Shown: positions 6,342-32,009 of the stretch, piece by piece
Layout: every line of letters begins with the position of its first letter
Position numbering within the stretch: position 1 is the stretch's first letter
DNA from: Terebella lapidaria
Lineage: Eukaryota; Annelida; Polychaeta; Terebellida; Terebellidae
Assembly: GCA_949152475.1 (NCBI GenBank)
Contig: OX424570.1
Location: 21,572,694-21,636,693, forward strand
Length of the DNA: 64,000 nt
Reading direction: 5' to 3'
Position numbers and translations under genes: made by a program
Notes under the pieces: generated by a model
Seen by the model: the letters and a program-made list of their open reading frames with translations, nothing else
What the model was told of the DNA's origin: nothing
Databases searched by the model: none

Positions 6342-6349
6342 TATATAAA
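6342..6349 (+). promoter_or_regulatory. TATA box of Harbinger transposase gene
   Basis: TATATAAA 62 bases before the chosen ATG at 6404. The in-frame ATG at 6338 lies upstream of this box, so it is unlikely to be in the transcript; this decides the start. Confidence 0.7.
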
Positions 6350-6403
6350 AAGGGACAATTTTCACATCAAATCGCTTCTTCTCTCTGCAACCGACAGGTC
6401 AAT

Positions 6404-8695: not shown

Positions 8696-10036
8696 TCATT
8701 CCAGCAGTAGGGCCCATGGACCCCAGGTAGGGCTTGCTCTGCCAGTCGTACTAGTGTAGAAACTATGCTGTTGCTGCTGTTGACCGTGTTGTTGATCCTG
8801 CTGTTGACCGTGTTGTTGATCCTGTTGTTGACCCTGCTGCTTGTGAGGTCCAGCAGGCATCGGAGGTAGCAATGATGTCAACGTCCCCTGCTGCTGGTGA
8901 TCCCCTGGAAAATTGGCTGGTGCGAAATGCTGTTCTTGTTGTACTTGCAGAGGTGCAAGCTGCCTGGACTCTTCGACGAAACCCAACATTAAGTCCATGC
9001 TCGAACGGTACAAACGAGGTAGCACCCGTGGATCGAGGTCTGCAGCCATGGCCCCGAACCATGCCCCCCATGCAGCTGTGGCAGACCTCTGCTCGCGGTT
9101 TATTAAACCAGATATGTGTCCCTGCATTGCCTCTGAACGTTCCTGCTGGGATTGCAGCGTGCTGATGAGGTTCACAACCTCCTCCGTGTCGTTGAGCGCA
9201 GGCCGGGGGTTGCTCGAGGTCTTAGTGGACTTGTTAGGCAGCTTCCTTTCCGTCACAGTGGTGCTTTTCCCCTTCCCCGTCGACGATTGTGGTGGTTCCG
9301 GTGACTGCCCACGAGGAGGGTCGTCCTGCTCCATGACCAGGTCCTCCGAGTCGGTTGAAAGGAGTGTGTCATCAGGTGCCATATCGAGGCGAGACTTCAA
9401 CTGCAAAGACAGAAGGTAACAAATTCATAAATATATATTAAAAAAATTAAATGTATTATTGTATTTAATAAATTTCATAATTGTTCATGAACGAAAAAAA
9501 TTACATTTTCTACTTACACTGCATGCAGGTCTGCTTTTGACGCGAGATATGTGAGTCGCCAAGAAACCGAAGTTCTGCATCAGGAAGGTGTCCCTCTCCG
9601 TCAGGTCCTTGGTGGCTGATCCGCTTTTCTTGTCGGAGATTTTGCCGACCTTTGTCCGGACACTCTCATACCACGTCTTCAGCATAGGCCCCGACTCAAC
9701 CCCCAACTCTGCTGCCTTCTCGATCCATAACTGTATCTTCTTTGCTGTGTCTTTGTACTGTTTCAGACTCTTCGTGTAGAGCATTGGGTTATTTCGCAGC
9801 CACTCAGATAAATCCAATTCTTGTTCTTCTGTCAAGACCAATGGCTTCTTGTTCTCTCTCTTCTTTGGCTCTGTGGGTTGTGCTGGGGCTTCATTCGGGG
9901 TTTCAGTTGGGGATGGGGATCTGGACCTTGGAGGCGATGGAGACCGTGGTTCTTCTTCTTCTGGTTCTGCTCGGGTTGAACGCTTGTTGGGGGCACGTAG
10001 CCCCACCTTGACAGCAAGTCTCTTCCTGGGTGGCAT
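8696..10036 (-). CDS. MADF/Myb-like DNA-binding protein, second Harbinger gene
   Basis: Two exons, 10036-9518 and 9400-8696, join in phase 0 across an intron with donor GTAAGT and acceptor TTTGCAG, giving a 407-residue protein. In animal Harbinger elements a second Myb-like/MADF protein helps the transposase enter the nucleus and bind the ends (known for the family). Residues 1-65 are basic and Pro/Ser/Glu-rich. Residues about 72-160 form a MADF-type domain: LSEWLRNNPMLY, LWIEKAAELG and LKTWYESVRTKVGK mark its helices. The C-terminal half is low complexity, with repeats of QQDQQHGQ near the end. The start MPPRKR follows a TATATAAA box at 10119-10112. AATAAA on this strand lies at 8443-8438. 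No lesions seen. Confidence 0.88.
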
Positions 10037-10111
10037 TCTTCTTCTTGTACAGAGATCTGTTGCCTTTGGAAGTCCGAGTAGGAATGATGAAGACCCCTGC
10101 AAAATAGCCTG

Positions 10112-10119
10112 TTTATATA
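10112..10119 (-). promoter_or_regulatory. TATA box of Harbinger MADF gene
   Basis: TATATAAA on the minus strand, 83 bases before the ATG at 10036, mirroring the box of the transposase gene at the other end. Confidence 0.7.
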
Positions 10120-10129
10120 CAGCTTTTCT

Positions 10130-10495
10130 ATGGTCCGGGGCAGTCCGGGACAGTTCGTGTCTCTGCCGTGATGGTCTGTGATGGTCCGGGACAGTCCGTG
10201 TCTCTGCCGTGATGGTCCGTGATGGTCCGTGTCGCTGCCGTGATGGTCCGTGTCTCTACCGTGATGGTCCGTGATGGTCCGGGGTTCTAACGTGGCTGTC
10301 CGGGGTCATCCGTGTTGACACCGTGTTGTATCCCTGTTGCTGCCGGGTATCTGTCGGGACAATCCGGGGTCGTCCGTATTGACACCGTGTTGGGACTGGG
10401 GGAGGCGGTTGAGGAGTGTCGTCATTGCCAAAAAGTTGAAAAAACATCCCGGACCACCCCGGACCATGGTGCCTCCGTGATGGTCCGTGTCTATA
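10130..10495. repeat. Right subterminal repeat array of Harbinger element
   Basis: Tandem degenerate words GTGATGGTCCGTGTCTCTGCC and shorter GATGGTCCG units, the same vocabulary as the left array but with a more regular ~30-bp spacing in the first part. Confidence 0.8.
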
Positions 10496-10511: not shown

Positions 10512-11790
10512 TGGCTCACTCACTCAGTGTGTCTACTACCACCTGGATGAAAAGTTCCTTTGGCTGCACACAATCGAGGTGTAAGACCCACTCTATCCAT
10601 TACATGAGATGAATTAATCCCACCATAAGTCGCCATAAAAATGCCCTCAATAAAATCCCCCATGTGTGGGATATGGCTACTTTTGGGCAATGGAACTCTA
10701 ATGCCAATTCATTATTGATAGATGACATACGTCTATGTCTATACACGTTGTTCTCAATAGTAAAATAATATAATAAGCAGCACGGCACCAGACAAACACC
10801 CAAAGGTTACACATCTATTGTATGTTGTGTGTTACTTATCAGTATGTTACTCATATCTGTATTTCGTACAGCCCATGGTCATATGATGACAATACAGTGA
10901 TGATACATATATGAAGTTTGTCACAACTCTCACATGTTTGACGATCTGCTTCTGGACTAGTGTCACCGGGTCAAGCGAACCTGAATTATTCGAAGGAATA
11001 TTGTAGCTCCTGAATTATTTGGAGTGGGGGTGTGCGATCTTTGGAGGAAAACGTGACAGTAGGCTGTTAAAAGGCCGCAAATAACTGGCATACGATTAGT
11101 GTACAGACAAAGCAGTGTCATCATAGAGTATGGGATATGGTTTGTGTCATGTATGTGTCCCCCAACAAAAATCCAACATAAAGCATATTTCAGTAATCAC
11201 TGCACTACAACTTGCATGATAATGTGTTCTTGTTTATTCATTGCACAGGACATAATGAATTGTTGGTGTGAAATGATATTACACTTGACATATAAATGTA
11301 ACTCGACGAAAAACAACCGTTAAAAATACACATGTACGTCGTGATTCTAAACATAATGGCACGACAAGATTGTGGTATATGACATGAATGCTATCTTACA
11401 TAAAATCCCGACGTCTCAATATCCAATTACCTGAGTGCCATCCTTCCTATATATGACACACGCCAGGCTATATAAATCATACTGCTCTATGACCCTTCAG
11501 ATGGTCGTCACACAAATATCCGCAAACATTTGTCATGAAGATTATTGTCCGAGATGGTTTTCTAAAAACACATTTTCTTTGATTTATCTTGGTGCTCGAC
11601 ATCACAGACATTCAGCCATCATATTCACAGATAGGGCGAGACAATCATTACTAATTCGGATCATTGACAATGATATCAGATTACAATTTCGTTAATTTTT
11701 TTACAATACCGCAATATGAACATATATTATATCATTGTATACTAGAATTTATCACATGCTATTAATTTAGCTCAAACTACAAACAGCAGG
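10512..11790. other. No gene recognised
   Basis: AT-rich flank to the right of the Harbinger element. Short open frames only; nothing supported. Confidence 0.5.
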
Positions 11791-13257
11791 AATGTAAGAA
11801 TCAATCTATTACCACCAATATATTCAGATTTTGATGATGTTAATAACAAACGTAAAGTACAACATTTTGCAATAGAAACAAAGCCCGACCAAATAGTTTA
11901 TCCAAAGACACACTGGCGTCATCAGGGGCAGACAGTGTGTGAAATGTAGTTGTTTCTACTGTACACCTGATGGAATTAGTATACAACTGCCCAACAACCT
12001 ACGAAAAAATTATAAATCCAATACAAACCTTATGAAATAGATATATGACAAGTACATAAGTACCTAATCACAAGCCAAAAGGTTACTGAGTTGATGGTAT
12101 CCTCGGGGACAGATTTAACGTCCGCCAGCAGTGACACCGACTCAGTGGTATGAATGTAAGAATCAATCTATTACCACCAATATATTCAGATTTTGATGAT
12201 GTTAATAACAAACGTAAAGTACAACATTTTGCAATAGAAACAAAGCCCGACCAAATAGTTTATCCAAAGACACACTGGCGTCATCAGGGGCAGACAGTGT
12301 GTTAAATGTAGTTGTTTCTACTGTACACCTGATGGAATTAGTATACAACTGCCCAACAACCTACGAAAAAATTATAAATCCAATACAAACCCTATGAAAT
12401 AGATATATGACAAGTACATAAGTACCTAATCACAAGCCAAAAGGCTACTGAGTTGATGGTATCCTCGGGGACAGATTTAACGTTCGCCAGCAGTGACACC
12501 GACTCAGTGGTATGAATGTAAGAATCAATCTATTACCACCAATATATTCAGATTTTGATGATGTTAATAACAAACGTAAAGTACAACATTTTGCAATAGA
12601 AACAAAGCCCGACCAAATAGTTTATCCAAAGACACACTGGCGTCATCAGGGGCAGACAGTGTGTTAAATGTAGTTGTTTCTACTGTACACCTGATGGAAT
12701 TAGTATACAACTGCCCAACAACCTACGAAAAAATTATAAATCCAATACAAACCCTATGAAATAGATATATGACAAGTACATAAGTACCTAATCACAAGCC
12801 AAAAGGCTACTGAGTTGATGGTATCCTCGGGGACAGATTTAACGTCCGCCAGCAGTGACACCGACTCAGTGGTATGAATGTAAGAATCAATCTATTACCA
12901 CCAATATATTCAGATTTTGATGATGTTAATAACAAACGTAAAGTACAACATTTTGCAATAGAAACAAAGCCCGACCAAATAGTTTATCCAAAGACACACT
13001 GGCGTCATCAGGGGCAGACAGTGTGTTAAATGACAATAAATGCTCACTCTTTCCGGAACACCTGATTTCACCTCCTGATGGCCATTTACGGGGGTTCATG
13101 AGTTTCCCTGTCATTTTTGTTTTCTCTCACTTCGTATGCCTGATATGACTTTCTGTCCCCGGACTATGAGATTGGATAACGGACCCTGTTTTGTTTGCTC
13201 GGAATACTTGATACTGGGTATTGATTCCACGTCTATGTAGTTGTTTCTACTGTACAC
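11791..13257 (+). repeat. 362-bp tandem satellite, three full units plus an interrupted fourth
   Basis: The phrase AATGTAAGAATCAATC starts at 11791, 12153, 12515 and 12877, so the period is exactly 362 bp. Units are almost identical. The fourth unit is split: it breaks at about 13031, resumes at 13236 with ATGTAGTTGTTTCTAC, breaks again at 13257 and resumes at 24797. The interruptions are a Penelope-like 3' end and the 11.5-kb transposon. Diverged single copies or parts lie at 4494, 35797, 50834, 52141, 58398 and 58857 (some reversed), so this is a dispersed family that is locally tandem. Confidence 0.92.
13032..13235 (+). mobile_element. 5'-truncated Penelope-like element, 3' end only
   Basis: About 204 bp inserted in the satellite, from ATGCTCACTCTTTCCGG to ATTGATTCCACGTCT. 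The same stretch follows the RT gene at 56460-56665, which identifies it as the 3' untranslated end of that Penelope-like family. The satellite resumes with a repeated ATG, so any target duplication is very short. Confidence 0.75.
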
Positions 13258-13546
13258 TTACTGTGTACAGCGCTGTATAGACAATACATCGCTGTGCCGA
13301 CTCGACTGTCTGCGGCTGGCCGGGGAAAGTGATAAATTTGATCCGAGTATTTGGGGCATATTTACCATGCAGCGCACTCCGAAAACTGCACAGTCCTTCT
13401 CAGTTAGCTTGCAGCGACATCGCTGCAGTATAATTTGTGCGATTGCAACGAAATATTAGACTCGAATGCCAGTTTAATTTCACACACATTTCTTCCGAGT
13501 TTTTGTTGTCACCTGGTCTCCATATCCTGCATTGTGCGCATGCGCA
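13258..13546 (+). repeat. Left terminal inverted repeat of Academ-type element
   Basis: 289 bp, 99% identical to the reverse complement of 24508-24796. It contains a small palindrome (GCAGCGACATCGCTGC) and ends at its inner edge with TGCGCATGCGCA. Target duplication ACTGTACAC precedes it. Confidence 0.93.
13535..13546. promoter_or_regulatory. NRF1/EWG-type palindrome at inner edge of left TIR
   Basis: TGCGCATGCGCA matches the NRF-1 consensus YGCGCAYGCGCR on both strands. It is the last sequence shared by the two TIRs and lies about 700 bp upstream of the helicase ATG. A promoter role is inference. Confidence 0.45.
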
Positions 13547-14242
13547 AGACCATACTTCCCCGTATTTGATGTTGGCTTGCTGTTTCGTACATTGTCAATC
13601 AACCAATTGAAATTATTCGACAAATGCAATCATAACAAATATCTTAACTATAATCTGAATCAAATCTGAATAGAACTGAAGAGAACTGGCAACTGAACAG
13701 AAAGAAAAAAGCCTTGCAAGATATTCAGTGCACTTCAGTGCTATTCCTGGTATTAAACTAACCCTAAATGCTGTGAAACTTGTAGTAATTAATAGGACAT
13801 AGCGGTCCATATGCAATAATTAACAATTTCAGAAGAACAAACTAATTAGATTTGATAAAGTTACAATTTTATTTGTCACTTGTAAGTTATGTGAACTGAA
13901 CATATAGAAGGTATCTTTAATAAAACATATAAGCAGGTACCAATGCAATAGATTGATTCTTCATAAGTATGAAAGTAATCCAATGGTCATGAATGATTTT
14001 ACGTGTTGTACATCTGTTGTTGATAAAAAATATGTTTCATCATGACATGAACTTAAGAAATCAGTGTTTTGTATACAGAAATAGGTCTCAAGTGTGTGTT
14101 ACTCCAATATCATTTTTTTTATGAATACGCATTCGGTATGCAGGCCCAAGGTTTGACGTCCGTCTATCTACTATTTAAACATTCTACATGTTTTGGAATG
14201 TATTGCAATAAAGACGTTATTGATTGATATTGAACACGTGTA

Positions 14243-16111
14243 ATGATTTTGTCCATTCAGAAACATGGAGAATATCTGGCAAATATTAAAGTGGAGGTGG
14301 GGCTGCCATATAACCTCAAGGCAGAGCAGATCGAGGTGCTGAGGACAGTTGTGGAAAGGCAGCGTGATTGCATGTGTGTGCTGCCAACAGGGTATGGCAA
14401 GACTGACACGTTCATGCTGGCGCCAATGTTGAAAAACAAGGTACTGATATGTCCTGACTCGTCAATTACGTATATGTGATTGAAGGACCCAAATATATTG
14501 ATCGATAAACATAAAGGTTTATTATGGGGTTTTTTTTGGACTCGTACAACAGATGCATGGTGGAAGGACTATTGTTTTGGTAATCAGTCCCCTGAGATCT
14601 CTGATGCGTGATCAGGCGACACGCTGGAAACAGCTTAAGCCTGAGATCATTCTGCAGTCAGCAGAAATGAGCACCGCCGATGTGTCTGGTACATGAACCC
14701 TCGATATTTGCTTAGGAATAATTTGTCAGAATAATATATCGACCATTATAAATCGAGCTATAGGAAGAATGCGGCTATAGAAAGCGATATACTTTTATTA
14801 TAATAAAATACTAATAAACTACTCTAGATATCAAGGAAGGGAGATGCCATATCATCATCTCCTCCCCAGAAGCTATCCTCATGGATCAATGGCGAGACAC
14901 CATCATTCGCTTACGTGACCGAGTGTGTCTCCTTGCTTTTGATGAAGCACATTGTATGGTTACCTGGTATGTGGAAATATGACAATCAATTTGAACTCAA
15001 TATATCACAATGGCGACGCTGCCGTCAAATTAAACCTAGCATTGTTTTTTAAAGGGGCAAGAATTTCCGCAAGAAATACTTGCGAGTGAAAGAACTGAGG
15101 GCCATCCTTGGGAATGTTCCCGTCCTTGCCCTGACAGCCACAGCCGACTCAAGAATAGTTGAGGAGATCCGTTGCCATCTTGGGGTTGCACATTTTGAGC
15201 TAGTGGCAGTAATTCCAGACAGGTTAATATGTAGACTGATGCTCGACACTTTCGATATCCGATTTTGAAATACATATAATAGAGTGACTAAACCGTTTCT
15301 CAATTTAGACCGAACATTAAGCTACATATCAAGCGCAAACCTGCCACTGTGCATGACCTGGACTGGATAGTCGGATGCTTATGCGAAGAGCCCAGTAAAA
15401 TCCCCAAGATTATAATATATTGCAGGTAGTTTAAAATTCAGTAGCTAACTTAGAATAGAGAATTTAGTAGAATATAATTTAGTAGAATATCGAATATAAA
15501 GTGATGTGCTTCATCAGTGTAAGATGACTCTTGGGGATTATTTTTATAGATCCATAGAAGCTGTGACCGAGGTGTATGAGCATATTGTCTCCTCCATGGA
15601 GTCTGCTGGGGTCGGCAACGTGGACATTGTCCAAATGTTCCACGCTAAAGTGGATGAGGATACTGAGGTTGATCTTCCAGCTTCATTTGCCTCTTCTAAA
15701 TCCAGTGTTCGGTGCCTGGTTTCGACCATCGCTCTGGGTATGGGGATCCAGATTCCGGACGTTCAGTTTGTCGTACACTGGGGTGCCCCCAATTCCATAT
15801 TGGATTATTGGCAGGAGGTAGGGAGGTGTGGTCGCGATGGTCGTCCAAGTGAGGCTTTCATGTACCTTCCACCCTATTGCCTACACCCCAGTCGAGTTTC
15901 CCCAGAGTTCATGGCTATGATCAAAGCATCTGACGAGCACTGTGTCAGGTATCTTGTCTCGAGTCATCTAAACTTGACAGGTGAAGAGGTTCCTGAGAGT
16001 TCTAAGGAGGACACGTGTTGTAGTACATGCAGTAGGCTTCTTGCTGGTGATAGCACAAATGATCACACAGAATCGGATGGCATCCTGTTGGCCCATGATG
16101 ATAGCTGTTAA
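14243..16111 (+). CDS. RecQ-like superfamily II DNA helicase of the transposon
   Basis: Six exons: 14243-14440, 14553-14688, 14828-14966, 15055-15222, 15309-15425, 15550-16111. Every junction has GT and AG and every phase fits, giving an uninterrupted 439-residue protein. ATP-driven unwinding motifs appear in order: PTGYGKT (I), VISPLRSLMRDQ (Ia), AFDEAHCM (II, DEAH), ALTATAD (III), KIIIYCR (IV), VSTIALGMGIQIPDVQFVVH (V) and YWQEVGRCGRDG (VI). A short cysteine cluster CCSTC near the end recalls the RecQ zinc region. There is no HRDC or RQC domain, so it is a short helicase compared with cellular RecQ. The first exon may instead begin at an acceptor (ATTCAG at 14258-14263) after an unseen exon. 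It is convergent with the transposase gene and likely aids transposition; that role is inference. Confidence 0.9.
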
Positions 16112-17328
16112 TGTAAAGAGTAAAGAAAGGACATATATGTTTATGTTTCATGAGAAGCACACTCACATTATTTTATTGTGACGTTACAGTTCGTCACATT
16201 CATCCTATGATGAATACCGTCTCGTCCCGTATATGACACGGAAATATATGTAGATTTACCACATTGTTCTTTGATGGCGATTGTAAACTCCGAGGACTAA
16301 TTCGCTTATTTGAAAAATGAGGGTCACTTCATTTTGCAGAAGACGAACATGGCGATGACGATTTGTAAAGAACAGTCATATGTCACGGTCATGATTGCAC
16401 TCCTGACTTTCGCAGGTGCAATCAAAGAATAACCTTTTATTTGCATAAATTGATACTTATGACCTATGTAAATGATGTATAAAAGACAGGGCTTTGATTT
16501 TTCCTTAAAGACCAACACAATATGACATTCCACACGACAAACTGTCCATTTACCACATGGAAAACATGCAAGCAATATTATTCGCCATATAGTTCAATAT
16601 CCAGGAACATGATAAAGACCAACAGATTCCTAAACAAATTGGACATTCTATGCAAAAGAGCGCTGTAGCAAAGTAAGGCATCATGTTTTATGAGCTCCGT
16701 TTTCGACATCAGCACGAATAAGTTCAGGAAAACATAACATAGAATTCCTTCTCACGTTTAGACTACGGGTTAACAGAGTAAAATGCAATGACCATCAATA
16801 TACGACCACTAAATGTCAAGATTCCGCACTCATGTCGAGTCCGGGAACTAATTTCTAGTCCAGAAACTAATCTTTTTACACCTGATTGAGTGAATCCAGT
16901 GGATCATTGTACATGTAGTTTGAATCATGTAATTATCGCAGTCAATTATAGAGCGTGATAGTTAATAATAATGAATAATACTGTGGTAATGAATAATACT
17001 GTGGTAATTTTCGACCTCAATAACTATTCTAAAGCGCATCCATTAAGTACCAAGGGTCCAATCACTTGGTTGAATGAAGATTCTGATTTCCAGTCACACA
17101 TGTACATATGACAATGATCATAGTTCAACTTGAAAACTTAAGTACAAAATATTACTAATAATTGACACTAAACAGATATAATGTGGAGAACGAAAAGAGA
17201 TAATCCTGTTCCTCCAAATCCAGCACATCAGTATTTACATGTACGTATTCAAAAAATCAAAAACTCAAAACTGATAACTGAAAGTTCATATTGACTTGAG
17301 CTAGATGTTTGTTCACATCGTTGTAGGC
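16112..17328. other. Spacer between the two convergent transposon genes
   Basis: AT-rich, without supported exons. I found no clear AATAAA close to either stop codon. Confidence 0.5.
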
Positions 17329-17477
17329 TTATATTAGTCCTTCTTTCTGTTTCGAGTTCAGCTCTCTGCGCTTCCAGAAATCTAGTTTTTTGTTGAGCTC
17401 CTTGATGTGAACAGCCATTTCCAGGGGTTTCCGGAGTGTATTGTCCCGCACGAAACCAGGGAAGGCCCGGTGTTCCC

Positions 17478-17494
17478 GGGGGGGGGGGGGGGGG
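17478..17494 (-). repeat. 17-nt homopolymer in the last transposase exon
   Basis: A run of 17 G on plus (C on the coding strand) encodes a stretch of prolines. The frame is continuous on both sides at this length. Confidence 0.85.
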
Positions 17495-18396
17495 CAGATC
17501 TCGAAGAGCCCATCCTTCGCGAATTCTTTGACCAGGTGTGAGATGTCAGACGCATGAGCGGACGTCCTACCATGATACTTGGTCTTGGGCTGGCCAAACA
17601 ACTTCAAGAAAGCTTTCTGAAATTGTTTGGAGAAGGTACCGGTCATGCGCCTGCATCGAACGATTTCTGCGTCCGTATCGTTGCCTCGCGAGTGTGACAG
17701 CAGTTCTAGAAGAAAACGCCAATAATAACATTTCCTCAATCATAGGAACGTATAATGCTTAGGAGAAGATCATTTGGCAGAAATATCACAAACCCTTAAA
17801 CTCGTTGTTAAGGAGCTCGTTTATGAGGTCCAGGGGCAGGTTGGATCCTGGACCACCTGACAAGCTGCCAACCCGTTCCCAAGTGAGATCGTGGCGCAGA
17901 CGTTCAGGTAGGAACCCGGCAACATCTAAAAGATTCATACTAATCAATTGTAGTCCAAGGAACATTGTTTGAAGTAGCCATGTATATGAATCCCAAAGTC
18001 TGAAAGCATGTGTGTAACAATTGGAGCAAACTGGTAGACCATGATGGAAGAAAGATATGCAACGTACTGCATAAGAGTTGATGGCCAAGTATGAAATACT
18101 TGGGATGCTTCAAGTTCCAGAAGTTGTGCATGTAGATGCGCCACATCATCAAAATGCCTGGACCATCCCCCTCACGGATGAAATCCCTGTTTACCTGGTG
18201 CAAGAGACCACGGCCCAAGATGGCCAACGAGTGCTCTCGCACATGATCATCAGCCTCAGCGCCCAGCTGACAATCTTTACAACAGTACCATGTGTCTGCA
18301 AAAGGTTTGTTTGAAAGGTCTCTTCGGTAAATCAAAGGGATACATCATATATGTTATTGTTATATTAAGTAACAATATAAAATATTGATGATATAC

Positions 18397-18815
18397 CCTT
18401 GGACTTCGAAGATGGCCTGCCCACGCAGGATGGGTGATACAGTGACTGACGCCTGCAGTCATCACCCAGGGCACATCGCAGCATCTCCCTGTCCTCAGGT
18501 CCCTGGGTTGTCTTACACCAACAGTATGCGAATGATGTAGACTTAGAACATGAGACACTGCAATACCACACCCCATCTGGTGCCTCCGTCAGAGGTGGAT
18601 CAAGGCAGGAAAGGTGATACCAACTGTTGGCACATACTCGGTTGGCGCACATGACCATTGGACCACCAATCTCTTGAAAAGACAGGTGAAAGAACAGAGG
18701 AAAAGAACGATGAAAAGAATCACCCCAGGATGTGAACAAGCCGAAAAAGCCTACATATGGAAAAAATATTAACCTTGTCTACAGGTACAGTATGGGTAGG
18801 CAGCGTCACCAACAG
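18397..18815 (-). other. Tandem PHD finger segment inside the transposase
   Basis: The first finger reads C-x-C, then VMC, ANRVC, WYHLSC and WYCSVSC. The second reads YCWC, MLRC, GDDC, LYHPSC and, after an intron, WYCCKDC at the start of the exon beginning 18295. Each has the Cys4-His-Cys3 pattern of a zinc-binding PHD. They sit between the GDQLT and REGDG motifs, so they interrupt the presumed nuclease core. Confidence 0.78.
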
Positions 18816-19585
18816 AGGACAAAGACTCCCGGACAGGAGCTAGCTCTTAATCCACCGATTCGAAACCAACGTTCTGCACAATGGCAGTGGCCTGGCGTGC
18901 CAGCCAAACTCTTTGTTCAGGTAGTGATGAGGGGAAACCTTCCGGTGTGTCATCTATGCCTGTTGCTCCCACCTCAGATAGATATGCCAGGACCGTAAAT
19001 CCTTCAGTGACAAACTGAAGGGAAAATCCATTCGAAAAAGACAAATATAGCCAGAGAAACTGTAATATGTGTCGACCGTTATTTATAATGGAATCAAATA
19101 TTGAAACAATGTGGATGTACATTGTACCTCCAAAAAATCCCAGACGTGTTGGAAGTTGTCCATGACCTTTGACGGCCTCATGGAGCTGAAATATGGTAAT
19201 CATCACTATATTTGCTGGAATATGGTTAACTCATTAAACTATTTTAATAATTAGTGTCATCATTTTCGCCTCTGTGTTTTTGTTCCAATTCATAATGTGT
19301 TTTCAAAGATAATAACCGGTGCTTGAAATAATCTTTAAGCTGACTCAAGGTGCCACGATCAGCCACACTGGCTCCGTCATACAGATGATCCAACGTATCC
19401 TTGAACAGGAAGTAAACAAACATTGGTAATTCTGAAACAAATCATCTCATGAATATTAGTTATGCAACATTTGGCGCCGGCTTTCTAGGTGGCAAGAGCC
19501 ACTAATTATACCTGCATCATTATGCCCTCTTTGTGAAATTCCTGAGGGACTTCTTGGAGTCCAACTAGCCGCTGGCGTTCAGTCG

Positions 19586-19601
19586 CCCCCCCCCCCCCCC
19601 C
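19586..19601 (-). repeat. 16-nt homopolymer in the GDQLT exon
   Basis: A run of 16 C on plus (G on the coding strand) encodes glycines between two conserved segments that stay in one frame. Confidence 0.85.
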
Positions 19602-22396
19602 TGACCGAGCTCGTTTTGCAGATGTTGATCTTTCACAGGTAAGCTGATCACCATTACAAGGAATTGTCAGAAGACTGCCATCCTTCTGAAGGGGAATATA
19701 CTTATGCAAGTATGCGTTGATGTCAATGGTTCCAGCAGTAGTAGCTGGGTCAGCTGTCATTGCCCCGAGGTTAAGAACCTTCGACTCCTTGCACATGGAT
19801 TCAGAGTAGGCATGAGGGACATGTTTGGTGACATGTTTGTCAAGATGAGCAAGATGAGGAACATTTCTGAAAGTAGATAATCCATCTGAAATGCAATATC
19901 AATATTCATGCCACTGTTGGATTTCACTGATATTTCAAAATATGTAATATCACTGACGCTGTCATTGTACGCTCCACGATAGTCACAGCACGCTTTTCCA
20001 TGAACTCCCAATCCTCCTTTGTTGCTATCAGTGCCTTTGTTGGGATATCGCATGCCAGTGTGGTCTCCGGCCGTGTGAGATGAAGAGAAGCTGTCCTATG
20101 TAGTGAGGCATGACTTAGAGCCATGAAGAGGAAGCGATTTCCCTTGTCCATGGTGACATGTTTACGGTGTAGTTCTTTTTGCACATTGTCCCATCCAAGA
20201 CTAAAGGAACTGTAACAGCGTATCAAATAAATAGAGCGCAAAATCTAATATCTAAGATATATATTTTTGGCATGCAAAAACGTCCTATATAATACATTCA
20301 ACCTGTTACGTCTGGGTGTAAACACTGAAGATACTCTGCATACCATTGGGCCCTCCCAAAATGCCCAATGATGAACCCAAAACCACCCGAACATTCCCAC
20401 ATACATGTATTTATCAAACACACGAAGCTGCCATTCATTCAGCCACTCATTAAGCACTGTTCAACCACCTGCCCCAGAATAGTCTGGGCAGGGTCCATTA
20501 TGGTTCACCATGAGTCATAAAAACCATTAATAAGACAAAATGTAGTAATAGGCAGCGCTTTGGTTGTAGGTAAGATAATTTGCTGCTTTATCGTGACTTC
20601 AGAAGGGGGCCACTTCTGCACACTTACAGGTTCGCTTCAGCATTGCCGAAGTTCAGTCTCCGTCTGGGTACCACCTGTTTCTGGGGGCTGCTTCTCTATT
20701 GATCAAAGTTTATTTTATATCAGTGGAATATTACCTATGTGACAGATAATGATGTAGATGTTATGCCCTAGCAACTACTTGTATCTGACTGTTTCAAGGT
20801 ATCTTAAGTCCATGTAAATATTGCAGCATACTTCAATGTTCTCTTTGATGGACATAATCTCAAAGTCATGGTGTTCTATCAGCTTGTCCACTAGCTGCCT
20901 GGCTGTGTCTTTGCACGTGGATATCCCGATGAAGTTTAAGCTCCTAAATAGTTTGAGCTGACAATCTTGGCGCCACATCTCGATCCCGAACATTCCTTGC
21001 ATGAACTTATAACGCCTTGGGGCATGGGACTGCAGGACAATGCCGAGTAGGATACTGAACCTGCATGCCCACACCTCCTTACACTCATCCTCGGTCATCG
21101 TCCTTAGAAATTTATAATAGCCTACTGATCATCGTGGTGCTCGCAATTGTTATTTTGACAATGCTCAACATGTTAGCGACTAGTCAGGAGTGACTCATTG
21201 TTATACCTCTTGGCCGCTTTTGGTCCTTTGATCACTCCCCGTCTCATATCTTCACTCGGTGGCAGTAGAGAAGAAACCACAGCGTGCACCACAGGCATTT
21301 TCTGGTCACACTCGCTTACGGAGGCGGTCCATTCTAGGTCTTCTAAGGACTTCGATTACACTTCTCTATTTGTATTTAAAAAACGAACAAAATCTTGGTG
21401 CATATATGTTACCATCCCATCCCCTTAGGCTACCGGATTCATCTACATACTCGTAACCCTAACCTGGAGAAGGTATGCAGCTGTCTCTCCAATGGAACAG
21501 CTCGTTTCGTCGTGGTTCTTGTGTCCTGACGTATCAACTTGCATACGACTCCTATCATAGCTCCCTTGGCCGCCTCTGACTCTTGCACCATTCCCTGGAA
21601 GGCACGCTGGTAGTGACTATCCATAATGCGGTCGCAGGCTGTAGTCTTCCAACTGCCAGCAGCATTCGGTTGCTGATATGTCACACAATGCTGCAAGTCC
21701 ATGTTCTTCATCTTGCTGTATGGGTGTTTCTACAGGACTGACTGGTGTCTGGTTAGGGCACGGGGTGGAAACAGGGGGATCACTGGGAAAGACAGTTGGG
21801 GTTGGAAAACAGTTTGGTTTCTTGGTGAGTCGTTTAGGTGTCCAAGGCCCACTCCACTGTCTCTTTCTGTTCGCAGTAGCCTGAATAACGCCGATTTGTC
21901 ATACAGATTGTCCTACTCACATACATTTATATATATACTGTAGTATATATATTCATATATTGTATAAACAAATGGTCATGCTAATGGAAACTTTACAATT
22001 GCCTGATTGTAAATATTCCATTGTATGTATTGTATGTATGAATATTGATATGTGATAGGCCTACTTGTGTATTGTTCATTGTTTGCATTTTAGTGTTCTA
22101 TATTGTCATTCTCATTGCATTGCAGGTAAATTCCTCACCACGGGTTGGTACGATGCATTTGGGATCCAGGTTGGGGTTTATGATCTTGACCCCTGACCGA
22201 TTCCACGAAAGGGAGGGGGAGAAGGAGGGGGGGGGGGGGGAGGTGATGTAGTCCCATACAGATACTGGTTTTTCCTATGAATATCAGCCACAATATCAGC
22301 CGCCGACGATTCTACCTGGGACAGCAGGGGCGAGTATAGGATTTTGGGAGGGGTGGGGGGCAAACCCTTTGAGCGACATAATGGCGAGCGAGGGCT

Positions 22397-23010
22397 CCAG
22401 AAGCTGAAAGGTTATGCATACCCAGTGTTTTTTAGAGGTTTCCTTTGGTCCATTCCCCATTTCTCTAAGAGTTTTTGCATGGCTAATTCAGAGCAGATCT
22501 GGGATTTGAGGGATGGCCCATTTTGTGAAATGTTACTAAGCCAGCTGAAGCGAGCCCCTGTCGGCCGGGGGTCTGGGGCCTGCTCAAGGGCCCCAGACAC
22601 TGAAGGTTTATGCATCCCCAATGATGTGTTCTAGGGATCTCTTTGATCCAATTTCCATGGCCTTGGAGAGTTTATGAATACCTGATCTTGGGTGAATCCA
22701 GGGTTCGGAAGGAGTGCCAAGATATGAAATGTCGCGAAGCGAGGTGGTGAAGACCGAGGATCTGGAACCCGCTTGAGGGTCCCAGAAGCTGAAGGGTTTT
22801 GCAGTGGTGTGTTTTATAGGTTTCCTTTGGTCCATTCCCCATTCCCCTAAAGAGTGTGTTGCATGGCTGATTCAGCCAAATGTAGGATTTTGAGGGAAGG
22901 CCTAGTTGTGAAATGTCATTAAGCAAGTTGAAGCAAGCCCCTGTCGGCCTGGGGTCTGGGGCCCGCTCCCAGAAGCTGGCAGTATTCGCGTGCCTAAAAC
23001 AGCATTCCAG
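22397..23010. repeat. ~190-bp tandem repeat inside transposase intron 1
   Basis: Units start at about 22397, 22591, 22781 and 22968, marked by CCCAGAAGCTGAAGG-like and CCCCTGTCGGCC phrases. Units are about 75-80% alike by eye. It is inside the Academ-type element, between the first two transposase exons. Confidence 0.8.
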
Positions 23011-24507
23011 AGTTCTCCTGGGTCTGACTATCAAGTATTACTTAACTCCCATAAATGTATGATCACTGCAGTTGAAACAAATTATGACAATATTACTTGG
23101 TTTTGGACCCCATCAAAGGATTAAGTACATTTGGCCATGCAATGCTCTCAAATCATTTATAGAAGGTGAAGGACATAAAGTGCTTTCACTGAGAACAGGT
23201 GGGCCGGCTATAGAGTGAATACACTGCTTGCGACATATGGGGCCCCAGAAGTTAAAGCTACTTCCCGGTGTAATTTATCTTGAAAACACTTCCTCCCCTC
23301 TCTTTTTTCCCCATTTTCCTTCTTTTTGTCCCCCTTTTCCTTCATTTTGGGGCCTTGCCCCCCCCCCCTTTAAACCCGCCCCTGCCGACAGATAGCCACG
23401 CAGCAACCTTGTATACATTTATTCAGGGCCCGATGTTCAAGGGCGCTCGCAGAACAAAAAACAACAAATTTAATAGGGACATCTACACAAAGGTCTTCCA
23501 GGGGATAATGGCATTGTTCCGACACCCCATTGTCACCTAACTGTATTTAAACACTGTTGTGTCCGATTTAACTGCCATCTAACTGTAATATATGGGAGAC
23601 CCCTTCCAGGTCTGGGGGTTGTGGGGCGTCGTTAGCCGCCCCGGGAAAAAACATATTTATGATCTGCCCTCATCCACTCTACTCCGAATATTTGAGATTA
23701 CAAAGACAAGTATGATACCAAACACCTGTCCAAACAATCCGCAAGACTAAACTCAAAATCCATGGACAAAATTTACACAATCGGTATGTTAAGGTTGGAC
23801 AAAAATTCTAAATTGGTGATCAAGGTCCGAGCAATTTGAATATCACAGACATCCGGCGAAGCCAAATGTGAGATCAGGTGTACAAGTTTATTATTAGTTG
23901 TGTCATATGTTTTCATTTCATGGCCATGTGTGTATACATAATGTGATATCAAGTAACTAAAACCAGTTTTATTATCCGTTCACCTGAGTTTTCTTTCTCA
24001 AAATTTTCACACAACTTCCACAGACGAAAGATGCCGCATCGCAAGAAGGGAACACCTTATGTATGGTATAAGGCGATGCCAAGGTACTGAGGCGATATTT
24101 GTCTAAACCTCTTGAATGACCTTTCTTGGGGATGTCAATATAATAAGAGGGACACTTATTAGACATCTCGATGGCTTGTCTCCTTTCTCACACCATCGTC
24201 TGTAACCGTATAATGTCTTATATTACTACTGACATGTACACAGTAAACTTCACTTTCCTAATATTAAAATTAATTTGTATAATTGTATGATTGTTTAATA
24301 ATGCTAAAATCAGGGCCGTGTAGATACGTTGGACATACGGACGATACTTTGGACTGTCATATTAAAATACTATCAATAAAATATCTCCATGAAAATAAAC
24401 TCCTGTGATAATTTGAATATTTTTTCAAAGGAATGCAATGTGAGAATGTCAAAATTACACATGCGTGAAAATACGGCAGTAGATATGCACGAGCTGGTGC
24501 TGTGATC

Positions 24508-24519
24508 TGCGCATGCGCA
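24508..24519. promoter_or_regulatory. NRF1/EWG-type palindrome at inner edge of right TIR
   Basis: TGCGCATGCGCA, mirror image of the site at 13535. It lies about 340 bp upstream of the transposase ATG at 24166. Confidence 0.45.
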
Positions 24520-24796
24520 CAATGCAGGATATGGAGACCAGGTGACAACAGAAACTCGGAAGAAATGTGTGTGAAATTAAACTGGCATTCGAGTCTAATA
24601 TTTCGTTGCAATCGCACAAATTATACTGCAGCGATGTCGCTGCAAGCTAACTGAGAAGGACTGTGCAGTTTTCGGAGTGCGCTGCATGGTAAATATGCCC
24701 CAAATACTCGGATCAAATTTCTCACTTTCCCCGGCCAGCCGCAGACAGTCGAGTCGGCACAGCGATGTATTGTCCATACAGCGCTGTACACAGTAA
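24508..24796 (-). repeat. Right terminal inverted repeat of Academ-type element
   Basis: 289 bp; three differences from the left repeat. Followed by the second ACTGTACAC duplication and then the rest of the interrupted satellite unit (24797 to about 24880). Confidence 0.93.
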
Positions 24797-24885
24797 ACTG
24801 TACACCTGATGGAATTAGTATACAACTGCCCAACAACCTACGAAAAAATTATAAATCCAATACAAACCCTATGACATAGGGTGAT

Positions 24886-25330
24886 GTCATAGGGTTTATT
24901 CAAACAACAATGAAAGCACGAGTGTTCTATGACGTGAAAATGAAACTTCACGGGATTCAGCATTAGTACCATATAATCATGCAGAAAACGTACAACCACT
25001 GTGACGTCATAATACGAAGTATTTGACGACCGGCTGATCTTCATTATTTATACTGTTTCCTAGCAACGCACATGTTCACGGGTCTTCTACTCATGAGTAG
25101 AAGGGGTCCTTGAGTGCAATCAAAGATTATAAGAAGTTCTGGCAATCTTTGGTACTTTATTTTACATGTGTTGGGTTTTCAAATATTTTAGAATCATAAA
25201 TTCATAGCATGTCATAAAAACAAAACCTGTTTCGTGTGTTTTCCAGCACACGGGAAAGATCTCGTTTGAACATCTCTTGTATTCTTCCGACAGTTCAAAC
25301 TCGCGTGCTGGAAAACACACTCACCTAGTT
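24886..25330 (+). repeat. Hairpin-bearing dispersed repeat, copy 1
   Basis: This segment recurs in reverse at about 42805-43290, sharing phrases such as TAGAAGGGGTCCTTGAGT and GTTTCCTAGCAACGCACATG. Its right part holds an inverted repeat (GTGTGTTTTCCAGCAC and complement, about 25234-25322). Likely a fold-back or MITE-like mobile repeat. Confidence 0.7.
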
Positions 25331-25716
25331 TTGTCATTAGAATATAACCTTGCACACTGAGTTGGATTGGAACTAAATGCTGGAGTGGAATCTCCGTCCC
25401 TTCTATAAAAAAGGAAGTGCTTCATCCCTGTAATTCCTTTGAATTTTCAACGACACCGCTGTAAGTTTTGTGACGAGTGCCTGTTTATATGCACCCATTG
25501 CTTGATTCTCAGTGATTATCTGTCGCCTCTGCGTCATCACCAACAAAACAGCGCATGTGTCACCGGGGAACTTGAGGATGCACCTCAGACATCTCGAGAT
25601 GTCACTTCTCCACGGACATAAAGGTCCTCATCTGAGCAGGAAGTGTGGATCATATGCTGAGGACAAGTTCCCTAGGGTGTTAATCAGGAGTTATTCAGCA
25701 TAATGGTGTTCAGTAT

Positions 25717-26486
25717 GGGCCGCCATGACCGCCAAAAATACAATGATTACAAATGGTCAATGTACATTCACATCAAGTGTTTATCCTTCACCAAATGGAC
25801 AGGTCATTCGTGACATGGACAAGACAAATATCAATCGATTAGCTCATACGGCCAACAATAAATTCAACTTTTTTTTAATCAGTTGTTCAGTTGCAAATGA
25901 ACAGTTCATTATGTGAATCATCAATGCAAAACACGGGAGAACGACAGCAAACACGATCAGACAAGTGAATGATTGCCGTATTATTACGAACTGGACACAG
26001 ATAATTCAATTTGAACAGTTCCTTTTAACAATAATTACTTCAAACTTTAATTGGACAAGTGTCAGATTTCCAAACGAACAAAATAATTTTTGATTGAACG
26101 AGTCCACCACCAAAATGATCAAATCGATAGCCAAAAATACAATTTTCAAACAATCAAATGTACTCTCACTCAAAGTCATCTATTGGCAATTGGACACTAC
26201 ATTCATCAAGTGGACGAGCGCAACGTTAAACGATGAGTTCAAAATGCATACAGACAGGTTATCTTTTGCAGAATTATTTGATCAATAATGGAATGAACAG
26301 TTAATGTTACAACTAGACAGTACAAATGACGTATGAATCTGTGTGATCACAAACGAACAAGCAACAGGTCGCCATTCGATTACTGATAGCATGGATTAGA
26401 CACTTGCGAAACGAATTAAACAGTAGTATTCATTATTCATTACATTTAGTTCAAACCTAACAAATGCTCATTTCCAAACGATCATT
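25717..26486 (+). repeat. 770-bp dispersed repeat, forward copy (also 28162-28931 and 30607-31376)
   Basis: Present once in each 2,445-bp unit, and once in reverse at 34645-35412 with moderate divergence. It starts near GGCCGCCATGACCGCC and ends near CATTTCCAAACGATCA. It is rich in AATGGACA-like words. No protein is evident; probably a non-autonomous element. Confidence 0.75.
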
Positions 26487-26589
26487 TTCCTCCCTTTGTA
26501 TTGCCTGAGGCTGATACATGAGATAAATATCTCTCATTATGTACCAGTATTTCTGCTGAAAACTATTGAACATATTCTTGTTTATTCAG

Positions 26590-26718
26590 GATGAGGCGTC
26601 AAAGTTTGGTGTGGATCCAGATACGGTCATCCATGACACACCTAATGAAGAGGGAATTGTTGTCCCACAAACGGAAGTGTCTTTGTCAGCAGCTCAATTA
26701 GCAATATTAAAAAATTAA
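26590..26718 (+). pseudogene. Terminal-exon-like segment, integrase C-tail-like, copy 1
   Basis: After a good acceptor (TTTATTCAG) there is a 42-codon frame ending TAA, with FGVDPDTVIHD, EEGIVVPQ and LSAAQLAIL. The order GVDPD / VVVP / Q-L resembles the tail of integrase-core (rva_4-type) transposon proteins in invertebrates. No upstream exon was found in the unit, so it is likely a stranded fragment. Confidence 0.35.
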
Positions 26719-27119
26719 CCCAAAGGCTAAGATAGGTTACGGGACAATTTTGGTTTGGCCATGGCAGCACTGGCAGGTAACAGACCTTGAGATTTACCAA
26801 TCAAGGTTCACAGTGTGAACATATGACCTTGAGATTTACCAATCAAGGTCATCCTTGTGAACTTCGATGTCCCTATTACATGTATGTGTGCGGCATTTGA
26901 TATTCTATATGTTCATAATACAAAGATATATCTGGGTGGAATCGTTAAGGCCGCTCAGGTCAATTTACACATTCCGAGTCAGACATTTGGCACTCAAGGT
27001 CATCTGACGTCAAGTTCAAGTCATCATTATTTGTGCCATATATGTCTTCCTATATGTTCATATTGCAAACATGAGCTCTACCTGCAAGTATTTCATCTAT
27101 AGAGGCAAATCTGGGCATT

Positions 27120-27686
27120 TTTCGACCCAAAAATGGCTGTTTTGTCCTTTCAAGGTCAAATTCAAGGTCATCCGAATATTAAGCTCATATCATTTCCTAT
27201 ATGTCCACAATTAATTCTTAAGCGGTAAAGTCGATAAAAGGCAAGATATTGGTCACTTTGTGCTCTGACCTTGAAAATGTGGTCAGAGGTCAAATATAAG
27301 GTCACGAGAATATTCAGCACGTATCATTCTCTATCAGTCCACAATTGATTCCTGAGCTGCAAAGTTCATTATAAACGAGACATTAGCCATTTTGTGCTCT
27401 GACCTTAAAAATGAGGTCGAATTCAAGGACACGAGAATATTCAGCATACCGGTATATCATTTCCTATATCCACAATTGATTCCTAAGCTGTAAAGTCAAT
27501 AATAAGTGAGATATTAGCCATTTTGTGCTCTGACCTTGAAAATGAGATCGAAGGTCAATTTCAAGTTCATCAGAATATTTGGCATATATCATTTCTTATA
27601 TGTTCACAATTGATTTCTAAGCTGTAAAGTCGATAATAAGCGAGACATCAGTCATTTTGTGCTATGACCTCGAAAATGAGGTCAAA
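27120..27686 (+). repeat. ~133-bp minisatellite, in array copy 1 (also 29565-30131)
   Basis: TGACCTTGAAAATG-type phrases start at 27267, 27401, 27532 and 27666, a period of 131-134 bp. Units are rich in AGGTCA and its complement TGACCT. Confidence 0.85.
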
Positions 27687-29034
27687 GGGAAAGATCTCGT
27701 TTGAACATCTCTTGTATTCTTCCGACAGTTCAAACTCGATCTTTCCCGCGTGCTGGAAAACACACTCACCTAGTTTTGTCATTAGAATATAACCTTGCAC
27801 ACTGAGTTGGATTGGAACTAAATGCTGGAGTGGAATCTCCGTCCCTTCTATAAAAAAGTAAGTGCTTAATTCCTGTAATTCCTTTGAATTTTCAACGACA
27901 CCGCTGTAAGTTTTATGACGAGTGCCTGTTTATATGCACCCATTGCTTGATTCTCAGTGATTATCTGTCGCCTCTGCGTCATCACCAACAAAACAGCGCA
28001 TGTGTCACCGGGGAACTTGAGGATGCACCTCAGACATCTCGAGATGTCACTTCTCCACGGACATAAAGGTCCTCATCTGAGCAGGAAGTGTGGATCATAT
28101 GCTGAGGACAAGTTCCCTAGGGTGTTAATCAGGAGTTATTCAGCATAATGGTGTTCAGTATGGGCCGCCATGACCGCCAAAAATACAATGATTACAAATG
28201 GTCAATGTACATTCACATCAAGTGTTTATCCTTCACCAAATGGACAGGTCATTCGTGACATGGACAAGACAAATATCAATCGATTAGCTCATACGGCCAA
28301 CAATAAATTCAACTTTTTTTTAATCAGTTGTTCAGTTGCAAATGAACAGTTCATTATGTGAATCATCAATGCAAAACACGGGAGAACGACAGCAAACACG
28401 ATCAGACAAGTGAATGATTGCCGTATTATTACGAACTGGACACAGATAATTCAATTTGAACAGTTCCTTTTAACAATAATTACTTCAAACTTTAATTGGA
28501 CAAGTGTCAGATTTCCAAACGAACAAAATAATTTTTGATTGAACGAGTCCACCACCAAAATGATCAAATCGATAGCCAAAAATACAATTTTCAAACAATC
28601 AAATGTACTCTCACTCAAAGTCATCTATTGGCAATTGGACACTACATTCATCAAGTGGACGAGCGCAACGTTAAACGATGAGTTCAAAATGCATACAGAC
28701 AGGTTATCTTTTGCAGAATTATTTGATCAATAATGGAATGAACAGTTAATGTTACAAATAGACAGTACAAATGACGTATGAATCTGTGTGATCACAAACG
28801 AACAAGCAACAGGTCGCCATTCGATTACTGATAGCATGGATTAGACACTTGCGAAACGAATTAAACAGTAGTATTCATTATTCATTACATTTAGTTCAAA
28901 CCTAACAAATGCTCATTTCCAAACGATCATTTTCCTCCCTTTGTATTGCCTGAGGCTGATACATGAGATAAATATCTCTCATTATGTACCAGTATTTCTG
29001 CTGAAAACTATTTAACATATTCTTGTTTATTCAG

Positions 29035-29163
29035 GATGAGGCGTCAAAGTTTGGTGTGGATCCAGATACGGTCATCCATGACACACCTAATGAAGAGGGA
29101 ATTGTTGTCCCACAAACGGAAGTGTCTTTGTCAGCAGCTCAATTAGCAATATTAAAAAATTAA
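29035..29163 (+). pseudogene. Terminal-exon-like segment, copy 2
   Basis: Same protein sequence as copy 1, 2,445 bp downstream. Confidence 0.35.
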
Positions 29164-31479
29164 CCCAAAGGCTAAGATAGGTTACGGGACAATTTTGGTT
29201 TGGCCATGGCAGCACTGGCAGGTAACAGACCTTGAGATTTACCAATCAAGGTTCACAGTGTGAACATATGACCTTGAGATTTACCAATCAAGGTCATCCT
29301 TGTGAACTTCGATGTCCCTATTACATGTATGTGTGCGGCATTTGATATTCTATATGTTCATAATACAAAGATATATCTGGGTGGAATCGTTAAGGCCGCT
29401 CAGGTCAATTTACACATTCCGAGTCAGACATTTGGCACTCAAGGTCATCTGACGTCAAGTTCAAGTCATCATTATTTGTGCCATATATGTCTTCCTATAT
29501 GCTCATATTGCAAACATGAGCTCTACCTGCAAGTATTTCATCTATAGAGGCAAATCTGGGCATTTTTCGACCCAAAAATGGCTGTTTTGTCCTTTCAAGG
29601 TCAAATTCAAGGTCATCCGAATATTAAGCTCATATCATTTCCTATATGTCCACAATTAATTCTTAAGCGGTAAAGTCGATAAAAGGCAAGATATTGGTCA
29701 CTTTGTGCTATGACCTTGAAAATGTGGTCAGAGGTCAAATATAAGGTCACGAGAATATTCAGCATGTATCATTCTCTATCAGTCCACAATTGATTCCTGA
29801 GCTGCAAAGTTCATTATAAACGAGACATTAGCCATTTTGTGCTCTGACCTTAAAAATAAGGTCGAATTCAAGGACACGAGAATATTCAGCATACCGGTAT
29901 ATCATTTCCTATATCCACAATTGATTCCTAAGCTGTAAAGTCAATAATAAGTGAGATATTAGCCATTTTGTGCTCTGACCTTGAAAATGAGATCGAAGGT
30001 CAATTTCAAGTTCATCAGAATATTTGGCATATATCATTTCTTATATGTTCACAATTGATTTCTAAGCTGTAAAGTCGATAATAAGCGAGACATCAGTCAT
30101 TTTGTGCTATGACCTCGAAAATGAGGTCAAAGGGAAAGATCTCGTTTGAACATCTCTTGTATTCTTCCGACAGTTCAAACTCGATCTTTCCCGCGTGCTG
30201 GAAAACACACTCACCTAGTTTTGTCATTAGAATATAACCTTGCACACTGAGTTGGATTGGAACTAAATGCTGGAGTGGAATCTCCGTCCCTTCTATAAAA
30301 AAGTAAGTGCTTAATTCCTGTAATTCCTTTGAATTTTCAACGACACCGCTGTAAGTTTTATGACGAGTGCCTGTTTATATGCACCCATTGCTTGATTCTC
30401 AGTGATTATCTGTCGCCTCTGCGTCATCACCAACAAAACAGCGCATGTGTCACCGGGGAACTTGAGGATGCACCTCAGACATCTCGAGATGTCACTTCTC
30501 CACGGACATAAAGGTCCTCATCTGAGCAGGAAGTGTGGATCATATGCTGAGGACAAGTTCCCTAGGGTGTTAATCAGGAGTTATTCAGCATAATGGTGTT
30601 CAGTATGGGCCGCCATGACCGCCAAAAATACAATGATTACAAATGGTCAATGTACATTCACATCAAGTGTTTATCCTTCACCAAATGGACAGGTCATTCG
30701 TGACATGGACAAGACAAATATCAATCGATTAGCTCATACGGCCAACAATAAATTCAACTTTTTTTTAATCAGTTGTTCAGTTGCAAATGAACAGTTCATT
30801 ATGTGAATCATCAATGCAAAACACGGGAGAACGACAGCAAACACGATCAGACAAGTGAATGATTGCTGTATTATTACGAACTGGACACAGATAATTCAAT
30901 TTGAACAGTTCCTTTTAACAATAATTACTTCAAACTTTAATTGGACAAGTGTCAGATTTCCAAACGAACAAAATATTTTTTGATTGAACGAGTCCACCAC
31001 CAAAATGATCAAATCGATAGCCAAAAATACAATTTTCAAACAATCAAATGTACTCTCACTCAAAGTCATCTATTGGCAATTGGACACTACATTCATCAAG
31101 TGGACGAGCGCAACGTTAAACGATGAGTTCAAAATGCATACAGACAGGTTATCTTTTGCAGAATTATTTGATCAATAATGGAATGAACAGTTAATGTTAC
31201 AAATAGACAGTACAAATGACGTATGAATCTGTGTGATCACAAACGAACAAGCAACAGGTCGCCATTCGATTACTGATAGCATGGATTAGACACTTGCGAA
31301 ACGAATTAAACAGTAGTATTCATTATTCATTACATTTAGTTCAAACCTAACAAATGCTCATTTCCAAACGATCATTTTCCTCCCTTTGTATTGCCTGAGG
31401 CTGATACATGAGATAAATATCTCTCATTATGTACCAGTATTTCTGCTGAAAACTATTTAACATATTCTTGTTTATTCAG

Positions 31480-31608
31480 GATGAGGCGTCAAAGTTTGGT
31501 GTGGATCCAGATACGGTCATCCATGACACACCTAATGAAGAGGGAATTGTTGTCCCACAAACGGAAGTGTCTTTGTCAGCAGCTCAATTAGCAATATTAA
31601 AAAATTAA
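31480..31608 (+). pseudogene. Terminal-exon-like segment, copy 3
   Basis: Same protein sequence as copies 1 and 2, in the last unit of the array. Confidence 0.35.
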
Positions 31609-32009
31609 CCCAAAGGCTAAGATAGGTTACGGGACAATTTTGGTTTGGCCATGGCAGCACTGGCAGGTAACAGACCTTGAGATTTACCAATCAAGGTTCA
31701 CAGTGTGAACATATGACCTTGAGATTTACCAATCAAGGTCATCCTTGTGAACTTCGATGTCCCTATTACATGTATGTGTGCGGCATTTGATATTCTATAT
31801 GTTCATAATACAAAGATATATCTGGGTGGAATCGTTAAGGCCGCTCAGGTCAATTTACACATTCCGAGTCAGACATTTGGCACTCAAGGTCATCTGACGT
31901 CAAGTTCAAGTCATCATTATTTGTGCCATATATGTCTTCCTATATGTTCATATTGCAAACATGAGCTCTACCTGCAAGTATTTCATCTATAGAGGCAAAT
32001 CTGGGCATT

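Follow-up and report, generated by a model that had tools for sequence, protein, structure and literature searches.

The 64,000-nucleotide stretch of the Terebella lapidaria genome analysed here (contig OX424570.1, positions 21,572,694 to 21,636,693; hereafter the window) carries an element of 11,539 bp with complete ends at positions 13258-24796, which is very probably a DNA transposon of the AcademH type, combining a putative DDE-type transposase of the DUF6589 family, with PHD fingers built into it, and a RecQ-like superfamily 2 (SF2) helicase. The notable part of this finding is the insertion of PHD fingers into DUF6589, which is common to several families of the genome and to a lancelet protein, and which varies in number.

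The element is bounded by terminal inverted repeats (TIRs) of 289 bp (left, 13258..13546, plus strand, beginning with TTACTGTG; right, 24508..24796, minus strand), which are 99% complementary with 3 mismatches, and the exact 9-mer ACTGTACAC directly abuts it on both sides as an unstranded target-site duplication (TSD; left, 13249..13257; right, 24797..24805). When up to 3 mismatches were allowed, the terminal 20-mer was matched in the window at just the two element ends, against 0.01 matches expected. The target was a satellite, a 362-bp tandem repeat at 11790-13032, and the joined flanks were identical to the intact satellite unit at 12306-12397 at 92 of 92 bases, 23 to the left and 69 to the right of the junction. 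These results bear out the structural claims of an initial annotation of this DNA, namely the 289-bp TIRs with three mismatches, the exact 9-bp duplication and a restorable empty site. Its description of the element as near-complete holds for the structure, the ends being complete, but not for the coding capacity, as the transposase frame is broken and a base is lost at the helicase start.

As the initial annotation had proposed, the genome (762 Mb in 438 contigs) was searched with the TIR. Scoring covered 40 of the 348 TIR candidates, which leaves room for further copies whose ends have diverged more. The search revealed two dispersed copies near-identical to that of the window (96-99% in aligned pieces), located on contigs C4 and C2. 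A more distant relative is present on C3 (82-90% in pieces). The C4 copy (C4:26629233-26641930) retains both TIRs (2 mismatches in 289) and has its own 9-bp TSD, CCGACAACT, and its transposase gene is damaged by a 4-bp deletion in exon 7, by disruption of exon 9 with a stop and by a ~1.2-kb interruption of exon 14. In the C2 copy (C2:41071017 onward), the exons of both genes are open throughout (14 in the transposase, 6 in the helicase), which supports the gene models described below; its right TIR is without positions 1-99, and it contains extra insertions. The window, C4 and C2 copies are thus each defective in an end or in a gene.

The transposase gene (17329..24166, minus strand) consists of 14 exons (24166-23984, 21880-21451, 21349-21207, 21102-20832, 20695-20628, 20209-19958, 19866-19512, 19399-19317, 19185-19128, 19014-18774, 18672-18397, 18295-18068, 17925-17794 and 17705-17329), with an imperfect ~385-bp tandem duplication within intron 1 (22390..22968, plus strand). 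In a model read through its lesions, DUF6589 (PF20231) scored 74.3 bits against a curated cut-off of 27, and PHD was also above its Pfam cut-off, in good agreement with the large, intron-rich DUF6589/PHD gene of the initial annotation; the open reading frame (ORF) with exon 7 alone scored 38.5 for DUF6589, and an exon of the sister C2 copy 39.6. Relative to both sister copies, the window frame is broken twice, by a frameshift in exon 2 and by an in-frame TAA in exon 10 (18847..18849, minus strand) that is private to the window among the three copies.

A first homologue search with the transposase gave no match at an expectation value (E) of 0.001 among 4001 candidates, and a search with residues 735-1010 gave a single one, the lancelet protein LOC118423433 (P0121), 39% identical over the searched region. 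N-terminal Cys positions are common to the window transposase and the lancelet protein, and one Cys present in both sister transposases is replaced by Tyr in the window copy. A frame-shifted reading of exon 12 was rejected: because the lancelet protein skips exactly the stretch concerned and the splice sites fit, this stretch is an intron. No relative was found in a scan of viral contigs, and a profile built from two transposase sequences retrieved 53 PDB sequences at E ≤1, which were PHD structures plus a few weak matches of other kinds, no transposase among them.

Putative catalytic motifs were identified in both parts of DUF6589, the first part in exons 6-7 (19512..20209, minus strand) containing D1 (WDNVQ) and D2 (NGDQLTCER), and the last part in exon 13 (17794..17925, minus strand) containing the catalytic E (PLDLINELLNNEFK). 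For comparison, eight other loci of the genome were selected in a non-random manner, L057-L060 from the best helicase matches and L061-L064 by a DUF6589 frame or by gene order; they amount to about seven families, since L057 and L058 are near-identical. Eleven sequences were scanned for motifs of the types DNV, GDxxxxER and DLxxE with a loose pattern that also yields chance matches, and the motifs occurred in this order in six (the window, the C2 copy, L057, L061, L063 and P0121). In DDE transposases, an additional domain is often inserted between D2 and E. The conserved D..D..E motifs together with the TSDs suggest a DDE triad in which the PHD fingers would lie between D2 and E.

The tandem ING-like PHD fingers are encoded by exons 10-12 (18250..18810, minus strand, limits approximate) and split DUF6589, with profile positions 10-222 before and 259-390 after the pair; the lancelet protein likewise has a PHD pair inside DUF6589, between profile positions 9-242 and 261-382. 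The best PDB match of finger 1 was YNG1 (E 1.2e-10; E 7.8e-9 for the lancelet finger). Two fingers were also found in five of the eight other loci (L057, L058, L059, which was partly read, L060 and L064), and one finger in L063, which scored 19 bits for Pfam PHD, under the cut-off of 24, and matched ING2 at E 5.7e-11; the other two loci are taken up below. A helicase phylogeny sorted by the number of PHD fingers was mostly unresolved, with 7 of its 16 inner branches open, and contained a firm group of six rows made up of the window family and the C3, C7, C2b, C11 and C1 loci (100/99). Among the literature matches listed, to which the founding AcademH description does not belong, no description of PHD fingers in Academ, AcademH or DUF6589 elements was present, which is weak evidence, and the novelty of the insertion is accordingly provisional. 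In L064 (C7:28323000-28328500), the helicase and transposase genes are divergently oriented and the PHD pair is nonetheless present. L061 (C17:25860700-25864200) holds a single-exon DUF6589 ORF of 559 residues (971-2650, minus strand) with no scored helicase match within 15 kb, and could be another lineage or a host-adopted gene.

The second gene of the element (14243..16111, plus strand), convergent with the transposase gene, consists of 6 exons (14243-14440, 14553-14688, 14828-14966, 15055-15222, 15309-15425 and 15550-16111) and encodes 439 residues. Its DEAD and Helicase_C domains scored 81 and 53 bits, respectively, and the protein scored 233 bits for the RecQ family model TIGR00614 (cut-off 220), confirming the SF2 helicase that the initial annotation had seen as cargo; the best PDB relative was WRN (E 2.1e-46). 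While the SF2 core is thus common to this protein and to WRN, BLM, RECQ1 and bacterial RecQ, it differs from RecQ helicases in that neither winged-helix nor HRDC domains were matched up to E 0.1, in its divergent, Cys-rich tail, and in its grouping with short, mostly animal proteins. The 13 nearest relatives, among 120 listed of 4085 matches, measured 346-587 residues, ten of them 410-457, and 11 were from animals (acorn worm, sea star, nemertean, limpet, bivalves and a fish), the other two having no name. In a tree of 29 rows, built from the window helicase and 28 of the 120 listed proteins, the window helicase grouped with these 13 and with lancelet P0055 at 100/100, apart from the other 14 rows (13 bacterial or nameless and one beetle). 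The short RecQ form, which the initial annotation had thought possibly undescribed, is therefore not peculiar, most of its nearest relatives being of similar length and their group standing separate from bacterial RecQ. In the sister copies, translation appears to start at an ATG within exon 1; just past this inferred start codon, the window gene has lost one base relative to both sisters, and its translation could begin at an upstream in-frame ATG.

The pairing of the two genes recurs throughout the genome. After 102 of 216 candidates had been scored and 76 rows merged, 73 DUF6589 loci were obtained, and DUF6589 was matched in none of 14 control genomes. A RecQ-like helicase match lies within 15 kb at 41 of the 73 loci, 35 of them convergent as in the window, and about 0.3 linked pairs would be expected by chance (73 x 93 x 30 kb / 761.6 Mb), the figure of 93 being what remained of 107 helicase rows once 14 extra exons of loci already counted had been set aside. 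The linked loci are not independent, as they include several copies of one family, with the window, C4 and C2 copies counted in. The linkage is a lower bound, scoring having covered 96 of the 576 helicase candidates. Being far above chance, it provides animal DUF6589 with a working context. Another convergent DUF6589-helicase pair is located ~11 kb before the window start (G000:C17:21558451-21561901).

The TIR search also detected a related miniature inverted-repeat transposable element (MITE) of 703 bp, which resembles its own reverse complement at ~81% identity and whose best end is 93.6% identical to the window TIR over the outer 200 bp, the other end being ~82% identical over 289. In 40 MITE loci scored of 373 candidates, 37 were at least 98% identical to the query copy, itself one of them, and the remainder 97, 90 and 89%. 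Elements related to the window copy have been active recently enough to leave these near-identical MITEs. The ends of 24 of the 34 MITE-type matches of the TIR search, those cut out as loci, were inspected for TSDs, which were exact and 9 bp long in 19, 8 bp long in four and absent in one, an interrupted copy; the tally of TSD length over copies suggested in the initial annotation therefore stands at 9 bp for the window, for C4 and for 19 of 24 MITEs. A weak target preference, on which we do not rely, was seen for C at -3 (14/24) and G at +3 (13/24), with binomial values of 3e-5 and 2e-4 that were calculated over all 24 loci, the interrupted one included, and not corrected for the positions examined.

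With respect to classification, AcademH was compared through the descriptions of papers citing it. AcademH is described there as encoding a helicase and generating TSDs of 9-10 bp (PMC10045372), features that it has in common with the window element, as the 9-bp TSDs of the window and C4 copies, the TIRs and the helicase beside the DUF6589 transposase all indicate, and the assignment to AcademH in the initial annotation is thereby supported. AcademX of the same superfamily has TSDs of 3-4 bp and encodes a nuclease (PMC10045372), in contrast to the 9 bp and the helicase found here. AcademH is known from animals and fungi (PMC10045372, PMC10799480) and is low in copy number in three fungal phyla (PMC10799480). 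The window element is set apart from AcademH, as characterized in these papers, by the tandem ING-like PHD fingers of its transposase, and it is about twice as long as the curated Academ elements of a bivalve survey, which average 5.6 kb (PMC10294476).

The length and near-perfection of the inverted repeats might also befit a segmental inverted duplication posing as a transposon, a reading that is barely credible: copies sharing these ends are dispersed in the genome, which refutes it, and both the TSD of one such copy and the empty site in the satellite also argue against it. The outcomes that the initial annotation had named as damaging, other copies lacking one of the genes or with ends elsewhere and a TIR confined to this locus by a segmental inversion, were likewise not observed, C4 and C2 both carrying both genes and C4 having both TIRs with a TSD of its own. 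An origin from another helicase-bearing superfamily, KolobokH, or from a RAG-like element is very improbable. The Kolobok target duplication is TTAA, and none of the window, C4 and MITE TSDs agrees with it, these being mostly 9 bp long and varied in sequence; moreover, the transposase matches DUF6589 and no kelch match was detected in the two proteins of the element. KolobokH had nevertheless to be considered, as it too is named as a helicase source (PMC10799480), and in RAG-like transposons a PHD finger is described as accompanying the DDE enzyme (PMC7204232). The RAG1L-RAG2L pair is convergent and its DDE enzyme works with a PHD finger, both as in the window element, but that finger resides on a second, kelch-bearing protein and the TSDs are 5 bp (PMC7204232), whereas the PHD fingers of the window element lie within the transposase, whose partner is a helicase.

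For the AcademH-type transposon favoured here, we propose that the DUF6589 transposase would bind the 289-bp TIRs, excise the element and reinsert it with a 9-bp stagger, which would account for the 9-bp duplications; the ends, TSDs, empty site and copies are observed, and DDE chemistry is deduced from the conserved D..D..E motifs and the TSDs. The RecQ-type helicase would probably open or remodel DNA at the ends or the target, and the most likely role of the two ING-like PHD fingers between D2 and E would be to dock the complex on nucleosomes methylated at lysine 4 of histone H3 (H3K4). The window copy itself inserted into a satellite unit, and its transposase frame is disabled. Several observations weigh against this proposal. 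The insertion in the window lies in a satellite and not in an evident promoter, and the MITE ends differ from the window TIR to the extent given above and do not single out the family that mobilised the MITE. Five of the 11 sequences (L058, L059, L060, L062 and L064) matched only one or two of the D-D-E motifs, and an AlphaFold model of P0121 alone was unusable (predicted local distance difference test score, pLDDT, 35) and was left aside, the RNase H fold staying a prediction. In the genome, 32 of the 73 DUF6589 loci lack a scored helicase match nearby, and six linked pairs are non-convergent, with divergent genes in five and same-strand genes in the sixth. Finally, L061 and L062, two of the eight other loci, are free of PHD fingers, L062 with a helicase adjoining and L061 with neither, and the fingers are therefore not essential to the chemistry.

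The last observation also favours the view that the PHD fingers are zinc modules of the insertion domain with a purely structural part in folding or dimerisation of the transposase or in its binding to the TIRs, and do not recognise histones, to which we assign somewhat less than an even chance. The location of the fingers within the catalytic domain points in the same direction, as do an Arg in place of the finger-1 Trp in the L058 copy and the residue at the Trp position of finger 2, which is Leu in the window family and L064, Trp in the lancelet and Tyr or Phe in three other families. Against it, finger 1 is nearest to the fingers of ING and Yng1, and the single finger of L063 likewise. Tyr, Met and Trp line the cage of ING-type fingers, and finger 1 of the window keeps the positions aligned with these three residues; in a hand-joined alignment of finger-1 rows, Met was kept in 6/6, Trp in 5/6 and Tyr/Phe in 5/5 of the rows reaching that position. 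The fingers of ING2 and Yng1 favour H3 trimethylated at this lysine through a semi-aromatic cage (PMC2726290), and the PHD finger of sea urchin RAG2L recognises H3 that carries methylation at lysine 4 (PMC7204232). By analogy, the transposase may contain a built-in histone reader with a role comparable to that of the RAG2 PHD finger. Our proposal, tentative and a little short of an even bet, is that AcademH transposases took an ING-like PHD finger into the DDE insertion site and later doubled it, that the enzyme reads H3K4 methylation from inside its catalytic domain and in this way ties excision or the choice of target to active chromatin, and that the result is an independent counterpart, in one polypeptide, of RAG1 with the RAG2 PHD finger. 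If histone reading is indeed what the fingers do, DDE elements evolved chromatin-guided transposition on at least two occasions, in the RAG-like and in the AcademH-type. The forms with no, one and two fingers coexist in this genome and constitute a natural comparison set, and the roughly forty, mostly near-identical MITE insertions allow target bias to be measured.

Other features were noted in the window. A ~200-bp repeat adjoins the element within the interrupted satellite unit (~13038-13236) and recurs at 48887-49085 and 56464-56662. Scattered, diverged single pieces of the 362-bp unit were found at 4546-4770, 35796-36100, 52135-52279 and 58391-58574, and the tandem unit may therefore derive from a dispersed repeat. 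A DDE_Tnp_4 transposase ORF of 478 residues (6290-7726, plus strand) and a MADF (Myb/SANT-like) ORF (9485-10255, minus strand) probably represent a Harbinger-type element. At 25302-32877, three copies spaced by 2,445 bp are 99% alike (300-bp reference), each followed by an array of a 134-bp sub-repeat, and further parts of this repeat occur in inverted orientation at 34639-35365. A perfect 333-bp tandem duplication is present at 58708-59370.

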